Origin: Actinomycetales bacterium
GTDB taxonomy: Bacteria > Actinomycetota > Actinomycetes > Actinomycetales > Microbacteriaceae
NCBI GenBank assembly: GCA_015655255.1
Contig: JAATFJ010000363.1
Coordinates: 1-17,546 of the forward strand
DNA: 17,546 nt
Direction of reading: 5' to 3'
Part shown: positions 7,866 through 16,319 of the stretch, in pieces
Layout of the letters: each line of letters opens with the position of its first letter
Numbering within the stretch: the first letter of the stretch is position 1
Position numbers and translations under genes: made by a program
The notes under the pieces: generated by a model
Database searches by the model: none
Seen by the model: only the letters and a program-made list of their open reading frames with translations
Told to the model about the DNA's origin: nothing

Positions 7866-8645
7866 CTACCGCACCCCGGCCGAACCGAGGTACGTCGCCG
7901 TCGGGGCACCCGTGTGCGGGGAGAGCTCGACGACGGCGTCGACGCCGTAGACATCGCGGATGAGCGCGCTCGTGAGCACGGATTCCGCGGGCCCGGAGGC
8001 GCAGATTTCGCCGCTGTGCAGCACGACAAGGTCATCGCAATAGCGCGCGGCAAGATTGAGGTCGTGCAGAGCGGTGACGACGGTGATCGGCAGGGTGCGG
8101 AGCAGGTCGAGTACGTCGAGCTGATAGCGGATGTCGAGGTGATTGGTCGGCTCGTCGAGCACGATCACCTCGGGCTGCTGAGCGAGCGCCCTAGCCAGCT
8201 GTGCACGCTGCTGCTCGCCGCCGGAGAGGCTCTGCCAGCTTCGGGTCCGGTAGCGATCCATCCCGGTGATGCGCAGCGCATCCTCGATCGCCGCCCGGTC
8301 CGCCGCCCCCAGCGCGCCGAAGGCTCCGCGATGCGGCGTGCGTCCGAGCGCCGCCGTCGCCTCCACCGTGATGTCGTCGTGTACCTCGGGTGACTGCTCG
8401 ACGATGGCGAGCCGCCGGGCAATCTCGCGTCGGCGCATCGCGGAGAGCGGCACGCCGCTCAGCCGCACCACTCCCGCGTCGGGCTTCCGCAGCCCTGCGA
8501 GCACTCGCAGCAGCGAGGTCTTCCCCGCGCCGTTGGGGCCGAGCAGGCCCAGGACCTTTCCCTCGCGGGCATGCAGGGAGACGCCGTCGAGGATCCGTCG
8601 CCCCGCGACGCCCCAGACAATTCCTTCTGCCACCAGATCGGTCAT
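7866..8645 (-). CDS. ABC importer ATP-binding protein, FecE/BtuD type (259 aa)
   Basis: This is the cytosolic ATPase that powers the FecCD-type permease encoded just upstream. It has Walker A GPNGAGKT (36-43), signature LSGGEQQR (140-147), Walker B VIVLDEP (160-166), and H-loop H194 in TALHDLNLAARYCD, a wording characteristic of iron/vitamin B12/heme importers. It starts at ATG 8645, which overlaps the TGA of the permease by 4 bases (ATGA), so translation is probably coupled. It is the last gene of the four-gene operon and ends 187 bases from the convergent GAF regulator. The transported compound is not defined by this subunit. Confidence 0.92.
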   Translation of the reverse strand: MTDLVAEGIVWGVAGRRILDGVSLHAREGKVLGLLGPNGAGKTSLLRVLAGLRKPDAGVVRLSGVPLSAMRRREIARRLAIVEQSPEVHDDITVEATAALGRTPHRGAFGALGAADRAAIEDALRITGMDRYRTRSWQSLSGGEQQRAQLARALAQQPEVIVLDEPTNHLDIRYQLDVLDLLRTLPITVVTALHDLNLAARYCDDLVVLHSGEICASGPAESVLTSALIRDVYGVDAVVELSPHTGAPTATYLGSAGVR

Positions 8646-9673
8646 ACCCGCCCTGCCCTTCTCAGCACGATCGCGAAGGCGGGCGCGCCCACGAGCGCGG
8701 TGATGACGCCGACGGGCACCTCGTGCGGGGTGAAGGCCGTGCGCGCGAAAGCGTCCACGGCGATGAGGAAGATCGCCCCGCCGAGCCCGGAGAGCGGCAG
8801 CAGCAGACGATGCGAGGAGCCCGCGAGCAGCCGGACCACGTGGGGAACGAGCAGTCCGATGAACCCGATCGCCCCCGAGGCCGCGACGGCCGCCGCGGTC
8901 ATGAGTGCCGTGAGGATCATGAGCAGCACCCTGCTGCGTGTGACGTTGATCCCCAGCGAGGACGCCGTGTCCCAACCGAAGGTGAACGCATCCAGCGCCG
9001 GAGCGAAGAAGAGGCAGGCCACAGCACACGCGACGATGACGAGCGCGGCGACGGAGAGGGGCTCCCACCGTGCACCGCCCAGCGAGCCGAGCAACCAGTA
9101 GGTGAAACCCCGCGTCGAATCCGCATCGCCGTCGAGCATGAGAATGAGCGAGGTGACCGCCGAGAAGAACTGCGACACGAGGACACCCGTGAGCACGACG
9201 CGGGACGGATTCGACACCCGTCCCCCTCCAATGAGGACGAGAACGATCGCGAAGGCCACGAGCGCGCCCGCAAAGGCGCCCATCGAGAGCGTCACCGCGC
9301 CAGATCCGACCCCGAGGATCATGATCGCCACGGCACCCGTCGATGCGCCGGAGGAGACCCCCAGCAGGTAGGGCTCGGCGAGCGGATTCCTCGTGACCGA
9401 CTGGAGCACGGCGCCGGAGATCGACAGCCCCATCCCCACGACCGCCGCGAGCAGGACGCGGGGAAGGCGCGACTCCCAGATGAGGGCGTCGATGAGGGGA
9501 GACACCTCCGGCAAGCCGATGTCGATACCGGCGTGCCGGAGGATGATTCCGACGATGTCCGCGCCGCCGACGTTCGCGGTGCCGATGAAGCTCGCGACGA
9601 TCACGGCGACAATGAGCAGCACCACGAAGACGAGCACGATGCTCGTCGAGCGGAGCGCCTTCGCGCGCGTCAT
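8642..9673 (-). CDS. FecCD-family ABC importer permease (343 aa)
   Basis: An integral membrane subunit of a type II importer, with a hydrophobic pattern consistent with about ten membrane helices. Family marks include SRLPRVLLAAVVGMGLSISG followed by AVLQSVTRNPLAEPYLLGVS, and near the C-terminus SGAIGFIGLLVPHVVRLLAG, the region that couples to the ATPase. The length is usual for FecCD proteins (330-350). It starts at ATG 9673, overlapping the methyltransferase stop by 4 bases, and ends by overlapping the ATPase start by 4 bases. Only one permease gene is present, so a homodimer is likely. Substrates of the family are ferric siderophores, heme, cobalamin and related cofactors; which one applies here is unknown. 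Confidence 0.93.
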   Translation of the reverse strand: MTRAKALRSTSIVLVFVVLLIVAVIVASFIGTANVGGADIVGIILRHAGIDIGLPEVSPLIDALIWESRLPRVLLAAVVGMGLSISGAVLQSVTRNPLAEPYLLGVSSGASTGAVAIMILGVGSGAVTLSMGAFAGALVAFAIVLVLIGGGRVSNPSRVVLTGVLVSQFFSAVTSLILMLDGDADSTRGFTYWLLGSLGGARWEPLSVAALVIVACAVACLFFAPALDAFTFGWDTASSLGINVTRSRVLLMILTALMTAAAVAASGAIGFIGLLVPHVVRLLAGSSHRLLLPLSGLGGAIFLIAVDAFARTAFTPHEVPVGVITALVGAPAFAIVLRRAGRV

Positions 9674-10443
9674 CGACGTCCGAGGATGACGACGTCGTCC
9701 CAGAACCGCCAGACGACGCCCGTCTCGCGGAAGCCCGCGGTGCGCAGCGCACTGAGGTGCAGTTCCAGCGGCGCGTGCGGTGTGGGCGGGCGGTCAGCGA
9801 AGCGACGCTCCCGCTCGGCGGCGAGAGCCGCGAGTTCCGGAATCGCGACCGCCTGCTCCCACCATTGGTCCCAGGTGAGCACGCCCTGCGCGTAGGCCTC
9901 CGCCTGCGTCCGCTCATCGTCGTGGGCGGCCGCCGCCGTGAGGAAGGGCTGCGCCTGCGGGTCGTAGCGGAGGTGGTCGGCGTCGAGGAAGATCCCGCCC
10001 TCGGGCAGGACCTCCGCGAGCTGCGCGTAGAGGGCCACGAGCTGATGCGGATGGAGCCAGTGCAGGGCCGTCGAGGAGACGGCGATGTCGATACGCCCCG
10101 TGGGGAGCGCCCCGCGCCAGTCCCCCGCGAGATCCGCGTCGACCGCGAGGAAGCGGCCGGGATAGCGCTCCTCGCCGACCTCCTTCGCGATCGTCAACAG
10201 CACGGGGTCGTAGTCGACGCCGACGACACTGATGGAGGGGAAGCGATCGAGGATCCGCTGCGAGAGACTGCCGGGGCCGCACGCGAGGTCGACGACGGTG
10301 ACGCCCTCGCCGCCTGCCGCCCCCGTGCCGTCGAGATAGCGCGCGATGGCATCGAGGGCGATGCCGAAGCGCTGCTCACGGTGCGTGATGTAGGCGGCCT
10401 GCTGGTCGTCCCAGGAGCGGATGAGGGCGTCGATCCCGCTCAT
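9670..10443 (-). CDS. Class I SAM-dependent methyltransferase inside the importer operon (257 aa)
   Basis: This soluble protein has the class I methyltransferase fold: motif I VDLACGPGSLSQ (51-62), the acidic end of beta-2 (VVGVDYDP) and motif IV region DIAVSSTALHWLHP, then the typical VLPEGGIFLDADHL. The acceptor is unknown. The DIAVSSTALHWL pattern resembles small-molecule methyltransferases of the UbiE/trans-aconitate type. The gene sits between the binding-protein and permease genes, with 4-base ATGA overlaps on both sides, so it is made together with the importer. That suggests it modifies the imported ligand or something derived from it, for example a siderophore, corrinoid or other cofactor; this is inference. 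No signal peptide is seen, so it acts inside the cell. Confidence 0.9.
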   Translation of the reverse strand: MSGIDALIRSWDDQQAAYITHREQRFGIALDAIARYLDGTGAAGGEGVTVVDLACGPGSLSQRILDRFPSISVVGVDYDPVLLTIAKEVGEERYPGRFLAVDADLAGDWRGALPTGRIDIAVSSTALHWLHPHQLVALYAQLAEVLPEGGIFLDADHLRYDPQAQPFLTAAAAHDDERTQAEAYAQGVLTWDQWWEQAVAIPELAALAAERERRFADRPPTPHAPLELHLSALRTAGFRETGVVWRFWDDVVILGRR

Positions 10444-11474
10444 TCGGTGATCCCCAGGTCGACGAGTCCCTCAGCGACCGTGGCGAGCGCCTCGACGCTG
10501 TGGATGGTGGGGTCCATGTACTCGCCGGGGACGATGATGAAGCGCTTGTTGACGACGGCGTCCATCGTGGAGGTGAGCGGATCGCTCGTGAGGAAGTCGA
10601 TCTTCTCCTGCGCCGTGTCTCCGGGATATCCACGGGTGAGGTCGGCGAGCACGATGACGTCGGGGTCGCGCTGGGCGATCTCGTCCCAGCTCACCTCGGG
10701 CCACTTCGTGTCGGCGTCGCTGAAGGGGTTCTCCGCGCCGAGCATCTCGGTGATCGTCTGCGGAAGGCCTCCGGGTCCGGCGACCGAGGGCGTGGACTCC
10801 GAGGCGGCCGTGGAGTAGAACCAGAGGATGCTCGGGCTCCCCTCGACGTTCTCCGCGGCGGCGACGCCCTTGTCCACGATGGCCTGCTGCGCGGCGACGA
10901 CCTCCTCGCCCTTCTCCTCGACATCGAAGATCCGCGCGATGGTGCGGATCTCATCGAAGAGCATGTCGAAGGTCGCTCCGCCCTCGACGGCCTCGTGGTA
11001 CGTGCAGTCGAACTCGCTGAGATAGGTAGGGATGCCGAGATCCGCGAGCTCGTCGCGCTCGCCCGCGTTCTCCGCCGAGAAGAAGGAGGCGTAGCCGGAG
11101 TAGACGAAGTCGGGCTGGGCCTCGAGCAGCGTCTCATGCTTGATGATGCCGTCGGAGAGCAAGGGGATGCTGTTGTAGGCATCGGCGATGTCATCGGCGA
11201 CGGGCTGGGTCTGGTACCCGGTGCCGACCATGCGGTCCTCCAGGCCCAGGGCGATCATGATCTCGGTCGTGGACTGGTTGAGGGAGACGGCGCGCTCGGG
11301 TGTGCTCTGGACGGTGACGTCGGTGCCGCAGTTCTCGTAGCTGTACGGGAAGCTCGCCTCGCCGTCGGTCGACGCAGAACTCGAAGCACTCTCGCTGGGG
11401 GTAGATTCGGCGCATCCGGAGAGGAGCGCAAGGGAGGACAGGACAACACTACTGATAATAATTCTCGTTTTCAT
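10440..11474 (-). CDS. ABC importer substrate-binding lipoprotein, FecB/BtuF type (344 aa)
   Basis: A membrane-anchored receptor for the importer. Residues 1-21 form a lipoprotein signal ending in the lipobox LSGC (C21). A Ser/Thr/Glu-rich tether (22-40) follows, then the binding fold from YSYENCGTDVTV. The helical-backbone landmarks of the family are present: ERAVSLNQSTTEIMIALGLE, DFVYSGYASFF, and DPDVIVLADLTRGYPGD near the second lobe. C49 and C157 could form a disulfide. It is the first gene of the operon: lipoprotein, methyltransferase, permease, ATPase. The start is ATG 11474, with TAGCCT 7 bases upstream and no Shine-Dalgarno. The ligand is probably a metal chelate or cofactor; an F420-0-type importer is another possibility that I cannot test here. 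Confidence 0.9.
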   Translation of the reverse strand: MKTRIIISSVVLSSLALLSGCAESTPSESASSSASTDGEASFPYSYENCGTDVTVQSTPERAVSLNQSTTEIMIALGLEDRMVGTGYQTQPVADDIADAYNSIPLLSDGIIKHETLLEAQPDFVYSGYASFFSAENAGERDELADLGIPTYLSEFDCTYHEAVEGGATFDMLFDEIRTIARIFDVEEKGEEVVAAQQAIVDKGVAAAENVEGSPSILWFYSTAASESTPSVAGPGGLPQTITEMLGAENPFSDADTKWPEVSWDEIAQRDPDVIVLADLTRGYPGDTAQEKIDFLTSDPLTSTMDAVVNKRFIIVPGEYMDPTIHSVEALATVAEGLVDLGITE

Positions 11475-15374: not shown

Positions 15375-16319
15375 ATGAAAGACATCGAGCTGTACGAGTC
15401 GGCAGACGGCAGCATCTCTCTGCAGGTCCGCACAGATGCGGAGACCGTGTGGCTGACGCAGCAGCAGATCGCGACGCTCTTCGGTCGCGACGTGACAGTA
15501 ATCCGTCGGCATATCGCGAACGCGAGACGCGAGGAGCTGGAGGACATGGCAACTAGTGCAAAATTTGCACTAGTTCAGCGCGAGGGCGACCGTGAGGTTG
15601 AGCGTCACGTCGAGCATTACAACCTGGACATGGTGTTGTCCGTCGGGTATCGGGTCAAGTCCCCCGAGGGCGTGCGTTTTCGACGCTGGGCCACCGAACG
15701 CCTGCGCGACTATCTCGTGCAGGGCTATGCGCTCAATGAACAGCGGCTGGAGCAGCTGGGTTCCCTCGTGCAGATCCTGGCCCGCTCGAACGACGATCTG
15801 GTCGCGGGCGTCGCCGACGTGCTCGCCGAGTATATGCCCGGTCTCACGCTGCTGCGCGACTACGACGAGGGCCGCATCGATGCGACCCTCGGTGCGGTCC
15901 CCGGCTGGGCGCTCACGCTGGATGAGGCACGGGTGGTCATCGCCCAGGTGGCGTCCGAGTTCCCCGACGATGCCCTGTTCGGCACGGAGCGGGGTGATGC
16001 GCTCGCCGGGGTGATCGGAACGATCTACCAGGGCTTCGCTGGACAGGATCTCTACCCCACCGTCGAGGAGAAGGCCGCGAACCTGCTCTACCTCGTCGTG
16101 AAAGACCACCCGCTCTCTGACGGAAATAAGCGCAGCGCAGCGGCCCTGTTCGTCACATTCCTCGCGCGGAATGGGCAGCTTGCGGGCATCGGTAGCGTTC
16201 CGCGCATCACCAATAACGCCCTCGCCGCGATCACCCTCATGGTCGCCATGAGCGACCCGAAGGAGAAAGACCTCATGATCGCGCTCCTGGTTCGTATGGT
16301 CACAGAAGAAGCGACCTGA
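15375..16319 (+). CDS. RhuM-like N-terminus fused to a Fic/DOC domain (314 aa)
   Basis: Residues 1-120 are a RhuM-type (virulence protein RhuM) domain. An HTH-like stretch, WLTQQQIATLFGRDVTVIRR (26-45), is followed by VEHYNLDMVLSVGYRVKSPE and FRRWATERLRDYL. Residues about 150-310 are a Fic/DOC domain, with VEEKAANLLYLVVK and the active loop HPLSDGNKRSA (245-255). The catalytic His and the GNKR are present, while the usual Phe of HPFxDGNKR is Leu. Fic enzymes attach AMP or phosphate to target proteins; Doc is a phosphorylating toxin. No separate antitoxin gene is adjacent, so it is either self-contained or not a toxin. It starts at ATG 15375 after TAGCGT. Codons 60-67 form most of a perfect palindrome in rare A/T-rich codons (see 15551-15575). 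Such fusions occur in accessory regions. Confidence 0.88.
   Translation: MKDIELYESADGSISLQVRTDAETVWLTQQQIATLFGRDVTVIRRHIANARREELEDMATSAKFALVQREGDREVERHVEHYNLDMVLSVGYRVKSPEGVRFRRWATERLRDYLVQGYALNEQRLEQLGSLVQILARSNDDLVAGVADVLAEYMPGLTLLRDYDEGRIDATLGAVPGWALTLDEARVVIAQVASEFPDDALFGTERGDALAGVIGTIYQGFAGQDLYPTVEEKAANLLYLVVKDHPLSDGNKRSAAALFVTFLARNGQLAGIGSVPRITNNALAAITLMVAMSDPKEKDLMIALLVRMVTEEAT
15551..15575. repeat. Perfect 25-bp palindrome inside the RhuM-Fic coding sequence
   Basis: AACTAGTGCAAA (15551-15562), a central A (15563) and TTTGCACTAGTT (15564-15575) make two perfect 12-base arms. It covers the last base of codon 59 and all of codons 60-67 (T-S-A-K-F-A-L-V), and the codons are ACT AGT GCA AAA TTT GCA CTA GTT, all ending in A or T. 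A one-base loop rules out a normal RNA hairpin, so a site bound by a protein dimer is more likely than a terminator. Confidence 0.9.

Follow-up and report, generated by a model that had tools for sequence, protein, structure and literature searches.

A palindrome inside rhuM genes covaries with the recognition helix they encode and may act as a self-tag matched by counter-tags on phages

The closest worked case for RhuM appears, by analogy, to be BstA, a defence protein of prophage BTP1 that is suppressed by aba, a DNA element in its own locus (PMC8585504). The sections of that paper drawn on here describe aba as cognate to its BstA variant, as freeing the phage that carries it, as effective in trans on high-copy DNA and as apparently acting at the DNA level (PMC8585504). 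RhuM is like BstA in having a DNA-binding-like N-terminal domain and a short DNA element in its own locus, the role of the RhuM element being the one we propose below. The two elements differ in form. In the same sections, aba is a 63-bp element that spans the bstA start and contains CCCGCC direct repeats, whereas the RhuM element is a 25-bp palindrome in the codons of a predicted wing. BstA is described there as having a KilA-N-like domain (PMC8585504); our own search gave BstA no Pfam hit, and RhuM was without a KilA-N Pfam hit. Alignment of RhuM with one BstA sequence was not significant (hhalign probability 3.4%, E 0.013, and 0.5%). In the first of these comparisons (E 0.013), the N-terminal halves of BstA (L709, 1130-2050) and RhuM aligned weakly, with a similar order of motifs. 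RhuM differs from BstA as well in following a residue-to-base rule and in that phage sequences lacking rhuM can carry its sites too.

P1 Doc, a Fic/Doc toxin, resembles the RhuM protein studied here in its C-terminal Fic domain with an HPLSDGNKR motif, and the difference is that the proposed control element of RhuM is DNA inside the coding sequence. Autoregulated repressors can have intragenic operators, protein-binding dyads within a coding region. The RhuM dyad stands apart from these in being near-universal across the sampled family, in covarying with its putative reader and in encoding part of that reader, and RhuM-type dyads recur on phage sequences in mixed sets. RhuM has been proposed, on other grounds, to be a protein-modifying toxin of R-M/PrrC defence loci, often fused to Doc (PMC3710099). 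That work concerns the same family, and the sections drawn on here mention neither the palindrome nor DNA recognition. An excerpt of another paper lists RhuM with toxins that target eukaryotic cells, a different role (PMC12629846). Among the matches listed in a search whose scope left aside subscription papers and preprints, no title or abstract concerned a palindrome in rhuM or such tags on phages.

We analyzed a stretch of 17,546 nucleotides (the window) with the following features:

15375..16319, plus strand: rhuM-fic gene, 314 aa, with a predicted N-terminal winged helix-turn-helix, a RhuM region and a C-terminal Fic/Doc domain
15492..15533, plus strand: predicted recognition helix, codons 40-53; across the family, changes in residues 38-45 go with changes in the palindrome
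15551..15575, no strand assigned: perfect palindrome AACTAGTGCAAAATTTGCACTAGTT, 25 bp, half-site AACTAGTGCA, 5-nt centre; proposed cognate tag
15555..15620, plus strand: predicted two-stranded wing, codons 61-82; residues 72 and 77 change along with the outer arms
16107..16133, plus strand: Fic/Doc-like motif HPLSDGNKR, residues 245-253, from a PF02661 match and the sequence

The original prediction had placed a perfect 25-bp palindrome inside a RhuM-Fic gene and held that it was written in rare codons ending in A or T. We confirmed the palindrome at 15551-15575, within the open reading frame (ORF) 15375-16319, with 12-nt arms around a central A at 15563. It covers codons 60-67 (TSAKFALV), and the third base was A or T in 8/8 of these codons compared to a GC3 of 0.861 over five local genes. 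Given the protein and local usage, the probability of exactly these synonymous codons was 8e-12. The palindrome is AT-rich within DNA of 68.8% GC, and the window also contains a longer perfect inverted repeat, with 13-nt arms 21 nt apart. The ORF matched the Pfam families Virulence_RhuM (PF13310, 90.8 bits; gathering score 33.7) and Fic/Doc (PF02661, 36.4 bits; gathering score 24). It fell below the cut-off of the NCBIfam model DOC_P1 (30.1 bits vs 38.65) and matched the PADLOC profile PDC-S23, a candidate entry (E 2.1e-132). We take HPLSDGNKR to be a Fic/Doc-like active-site motif. On the minus strand, the window also encodes what look by eye like an iron-siderophore type binding protein (10440-11474) and a permease (8642-9673), which are unrelated to the palindrome.

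We gathered RhuM genes from genomes and viral contigs. An N-terminal profile built from 13 RhuM gave 219 matches, of which 215 were usable and 184 non-redundant (85% over 180 nt); 56 further non-redundant genes brought the set to 240. We scanned 260 centres in each gene for the longest perfect odd palindrome, which had its centre at one identical base in 80/184 genes. This standard base is the third base of codon eight after a conserved EL. Many of the remaining genes kept these arms and left 3 to 5 bases unpaired at the centre, and 158/184 had a dyad as we defined it (≥8 of 10 arm pairs at dyad positions 3-12, around a 5-nt centre). Because pairing fell from 90% at position 12 to 48% at position 13, the site has a defined size of ~25 bp.

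In the enlarged set, the dyad lay within 15 nt of the standard codon in 234/240 genes and at exactly the standard base in 205/240. All 10 arm pairs were intact in 142/240 genes, and a clear site was missing in 6/240. Control windows in the same genes reached ≥8 pairs in only 47/960 cases (6 had 9 pairs, none had 10). This family-wide conservation is decisive evidence against chance; a chance palindrome is ruled out by 234/240 vs 47/960, together with zero matches for the altered viral controls described below. Shuffling synonymous codons in the 205 standard-base genes, with the proteins kept, gave an expectation of 0.7 perfect sites compared to 129 observed, which rules out a protein-only constraint. 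The earlier proposals that the DNA itself is under selection and that the site marks the gene family were both borne out by these data.

The dyad sequence varied between RhuM genes, and its two arms varied jointly. Examples are AGTGCA/TGCACT (encoding SAKFAL), GTTCGG/CCGAAC (VRKFRT), TGTAAG/CTTACA (CKKFLQ) and GTTTCC/GGAAAC (VSKMET). A single fixed recognition sequence for the family is ruled out because the sites differ and covary. It had been suggested that AKFA-like wording recurs in RhuM proteins; SAKFAL does recur, but so do VRKFRT, CKKFLQ, VSKMET, TTENFSVV and others. We looked for genes that keep the residues and lose the symmetry, and found that 7/7 other SA(K/N)FAL genes were symmetric, the one in L073 with one mismatch. 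The longer pattern CAAAGTGCAAAWTTTGCACTTTG was found in 0/149 genomes. In L347, a near-copy of the gene's own palindrome (2/20 mismatches) lies 288 bp upstream, the sole close one among 205 loci. In several genomes, stop codons interrupt the frame of RhuM pieces, which suggests loss.

We assessed which protein residues vary with the site. Of the columns outside the site, the inner triplet shared most mutual information with residues 45, 41, 42, 39 and 38, with excesses from 1.71 down to 0.85 bits; the next such column reached 0.42. A rule was drawn from the 184-gene set, with residue-45 tallies over 158 training genes. Glutamate at residue 45 went with NGG in 42/42 genes, and Y or H with NNA in 19/19. 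L, M or Q was accompanied by AAG (34), GAG (6) or CAG (1) in 41/41. R was paired with GCA in 18/21, and K (32 genes) with TCC (18) or GCA (12). Three training genes had other residues at this position. The window gene, itself part of the training set, has R at residue 45; the rule gives GCA and the site has GCA. Dyad positions 7-8 tracked residues 40 and 44, and the outer AC/GT choice tracked wing residues 77 and 72.

The rule was noted before the held-out test, and the split for K was specified in the program that applied it. Of 47 held-out standard-base sites, two had residues without a rule and two had unreadable helices. The inner triplet was predicted correctly in 43/43 testable genes, compared to 10.6 expected. 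With shifted registers included, a choice made afterwards, 52/52 held-out and 163/174 training genes fit and the rule missed in 11/174; this tally omitted genes that lacked a site (6), had an unreadable helix (3) or were covered by no rule (5). To separate covariation from kinship, we built a FastTree tree from the C-terminal (effector) part of those classical RhuM among the 205 whose helix could be read and whose C-terminus was recognisable, 140 in all. The tree required ≥54 operator-class changes and 55 residue-45 group changes, counts that gene-tree errors can inflate; shuffled class labels gave a mean of 81 changes (lowest 72). Sister pairs that differed in class differed in residue-45 group in 16/18 cases, compared to 2/27 for pairs of the same class. 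Kinship as the sole cause of the covariation is thereby ruled out, and the repeated class changes suggest that helix and site are often exchanged as a specificity module against the effector. The inner bases of the site thus vary jointly with the predicted recognition helix encoded by the same gene. Recognition of the site by RhuM is strongly supported by this covariation, and we infer that RhuM binds its own palindrome, probably as a dimer.

We examined AlphaFold2 models of two proteins. Confidence was only moderate (mean pLDDT 74.0 and 80.5, pTM 0.52 each), and residues 1-23 of the window protein had pLDDT below 50. The model of the window protein has helices at 29-36 and 40-53 followed by strands at 61-70 and 73-82. 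The N-terminal domain is accordingly predicted to be a winged helix-turn-helix, with the palindrome encoding most of the first wing strand. No structural match to the Fic domain reached E 0.001; the top-ranked was P1 Doc (3k33, E 9.4e-3, TM 0.68 by target). The classical RhuM model likewise had no structural match at E 0.001 (best, DdrC, 4.9e-3), and a sequence search of the PDB gave a single match at E 0.057, which was not useful.

We then scanned viral contigs for three exact patterns drawn from RhuM sites; these matched ≥120, 52 and ≥120 stretches. Controls with an altered inner triplet, run for the first and third patterns, gave 0 and 0 matches. Among the matches listed, 6/120, 14/52 and 5/114 sites lay inside RhuM-like ORFs and 114/120, 38/52 and 109/114 outside, where the 114 for the third pattern are those of the 120 examined that were in newly fetched loci. 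The outside sites listed fell into 66, 33 and 93 distinct contexts, and no ORF of ≥100 aa was present in 39/66, 13/33 and 47/93 of these. PF13310 was matched in 0/50 whole virus records selected for a tag outside rhuM, records that can be fragments. When the window protein alone served as query, no viral relative was confirmed.

The first pattern was also scanned in 349 genomes of Pseudomonadota, the phylum of G005, the genome that holds the Nitrosospira locus L032. We observed 14 sites in 13 genomes, 12/14 of them in RhuM-like ORFs, and none for a reversed control pattern. Among the matches listed, most first-pattern sites in bacterial genomes thus fall within rhuM and most of those in viral contigs fall outside it (12/14 vs 6/120 in RhuM-like ORFs). 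We also considered whether a stand-alone AGTGCAAANTTTGCACT might simply reflect a RhuM gene somewhere in the same genome. Such a gene was present in 27/50, compared to 20/246, 61/200, 39/148, 27/149, 7/100 and 24/97 genomes in six phylum draws, a comparison given little weight because the sets were unmatched and some of the 50 had been picked for a site in rhuM.

In three phage stretches that we opened, tags lay where a DNA adenine methylase gene ends (Providencia and Morganella phages) and beyond antitermination Q (Proteus phage). A full or partial match to a tag-bearing region of L402 was present in 422/5,426 E. coli genomes, and 427/433 of the matching places were on plasmids. Five plasmid records opened from this set had one to three tags each, next to genes for polymerase III theta, an S24 peptidase and a Phd-like antitoxin. 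By these neighbours, the five plasmids look like relatives of P1. In L573-L576, L579 and viral loci such as L402, L406 and L421, we observed mosaic genes in which differing left and right parts flank a palindrome coding for NYPxxPDS; the WISCSERMP part of some of them is presumably DUF551-like.

Clusters were defined as ≥2 tags with ≤1 mismatch within 200 bp, outside rhuM, in tag-bearing viral loci, that is, in loci selected for holding a tag. Among the matches listed, half-sites differed in 31/31 distinct clusters. These are not independent because 18/31 are variants of a single pair (TGTAAG type with CCGG type); the remaining 13/31 had different combinations, two of them alike. The inner triplet was identical despite differing half-sites in several clusters. 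Three tag types occur in L450. In the Nitrosospira region (L002/L032), CGG-, AAG- and GCA-type sites lie together; the GCA-type site is the exact 25-mer of the window on the other strand, and the CGG- and AAG-type sites have one and two mismatches. Where an unselected tag lay no more than 300 bp from a selected one, it had a half-site among the 96 known from RhuM genes in 12/15 cases, and unselected tags elsewhere in the same loci matched in 3/5 (chance, 0.8% per half). The 3/15 without a known RhuM half-site were AACTCTCCGG in L645 and L646 and one tag in L501.

Other palindromes were seen beside these. An in-frame palindrome AGTGCAAA(C/G)TTTGCACT encodes SAKFAL in another family, ParB-like by eye (L047 at 2044, L084 at 2855, L013 at 4135), as if that family also bore an embedded tag. 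A plasmid-like contig of genome G007 (L070, L139), with ParA/ParB-like genes by eye, holds 7/8 of the genome's copies of AGTGCAAAWTTTGCACT. Of the G007 contexts of this sequence, 4/5 are of the form ATAAGTGCAAAWTTTGCACTTAT, which is unlike the RhuM pattern, and PF13310 had no match in G007. Palindromes of the type (C/T)AAAGTGCAAAWTTTGCACTTT(G/A) recur at many loci among L005-L124, on contigs titled Clostridia, Bacilli, Prevotella and others. Because L078 has one inside a RhuM-like gene, with its register shifted by 8, these may be subfamily tags.

We weighed these data against other explanations. An operator bound by the protein's own helix-turn-helix had been among the roles first suggested, and the covariation with the recognition helix fits that part of the idea. 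Plain autoregulation, in which RhuM would act as a roadblock on an operator within its own ORF and phage copies would be accidental or titrating, needs precisely this recognition and agrees with a single dyad at a fixed position in the gene. It leaves unexplained the differing half-sites in 31/31 clusters and the rhuM-less records, and titration of a toxin's repressor should harm the phage. Nor did we find a general second operator near rhuM: in 205 loci (-1.3 to +1.8 kb), there were only 4 extra sites of the own type compared to 2 of a foreign control, and two of the 4 are the two rhuM genes of L280 matching one another. We consider plain autoregulation unlikely, if still worth keeping in mind. 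A recombination joint, at which the specificity and effector halves of rhuM or the modules of mosaic phage genes are exchanged, would account for the class changes on the effector tree and for the P1-like genes with differing flanks around NYPxxPDS. It does not predict that the half-site tracks recognition-helix residues, and a clear gene is often absent around the sites, as in the contexts without an ORF of ≥100 aa counted above; this makes it improbable.

No more attractive is the reverse reading, in which palindrome-bearing DNA is attacked by RhuM or activates it. The same recognition would be expected and the sites do occur in phages, but the gene would then mark its own genome, and phages should lose such sites, yet some hold several different ones adjacent to each other. 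A hairpin of RNA or single-stranded DNA in the rhuM message would suit the 3 to 5 central bases that are often unpaired and loop-like. Of 79 mismatches at dyad positions 3-12, 20 were G-T and 59 other; one in six would be expected to be G-T, and this slight excess leaves room for at most a weak RNA-like tolerance of G-U pairs. The covariation of the site with recognition-helix residues argues against a hairpin, as do exact copies that lie between phage genes or in a different reading frame, and we regard a hairpin as very improbable.

We favor, with a probability of roughly 0.6, the reading that RhuM acts as a toxin in defence and that its own gene contains a cognate DNA self-tag, in the manner of BstA and aba, with phages carrying counter-tags. 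RhuM would recognise its own palindrome through its N-terminal winged helix-turn-helix, probably as a dimer, and would act through a Fic/Doc effector in the window protein and another C-terminal domain in classical RhuM. The cognate palindrome would hold off or switch off the toxin, so that the element carrying rhuM is tagged as self. Sequences alone give no direction, and that the palindrome inhibits rather than activates RhuM is, like the defence role and the immunity conferred by the tag, what we infer from this pattern. Tag and specificity would be hard to separate because the helix codons and the site lie within ~90 bp. RhuM specificities appear to have been swapped often, and phages without rhuM may escape through counter-tags, sometimes of several specificities side by side. 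We lean, a little less firmly, towards a broader statement: a bacteria-wide password immunity in which the reader encodes its password, a simple amino-acid-to-base code links the two, and phages and phage-plasmids such as P1 relatives carry rings of palindromes. With the password within the codons of the reading domain, reader and password would travel and change jointly.

If this is true, RhuM, a large family whose name points solely to virulence, would gain a function that can be tested. The matched pairs of helix and site, more than two hundred of them, offer a natural protein-DNA recognition code, in which coding DNA is seemingly both message and putative binding site for the domain it encodes. 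The data also point to a phage counter-defence that is free of protein and made of DNA only, which gene-based scans would miss because the tags are 25 bp long and lie in any frame or none.
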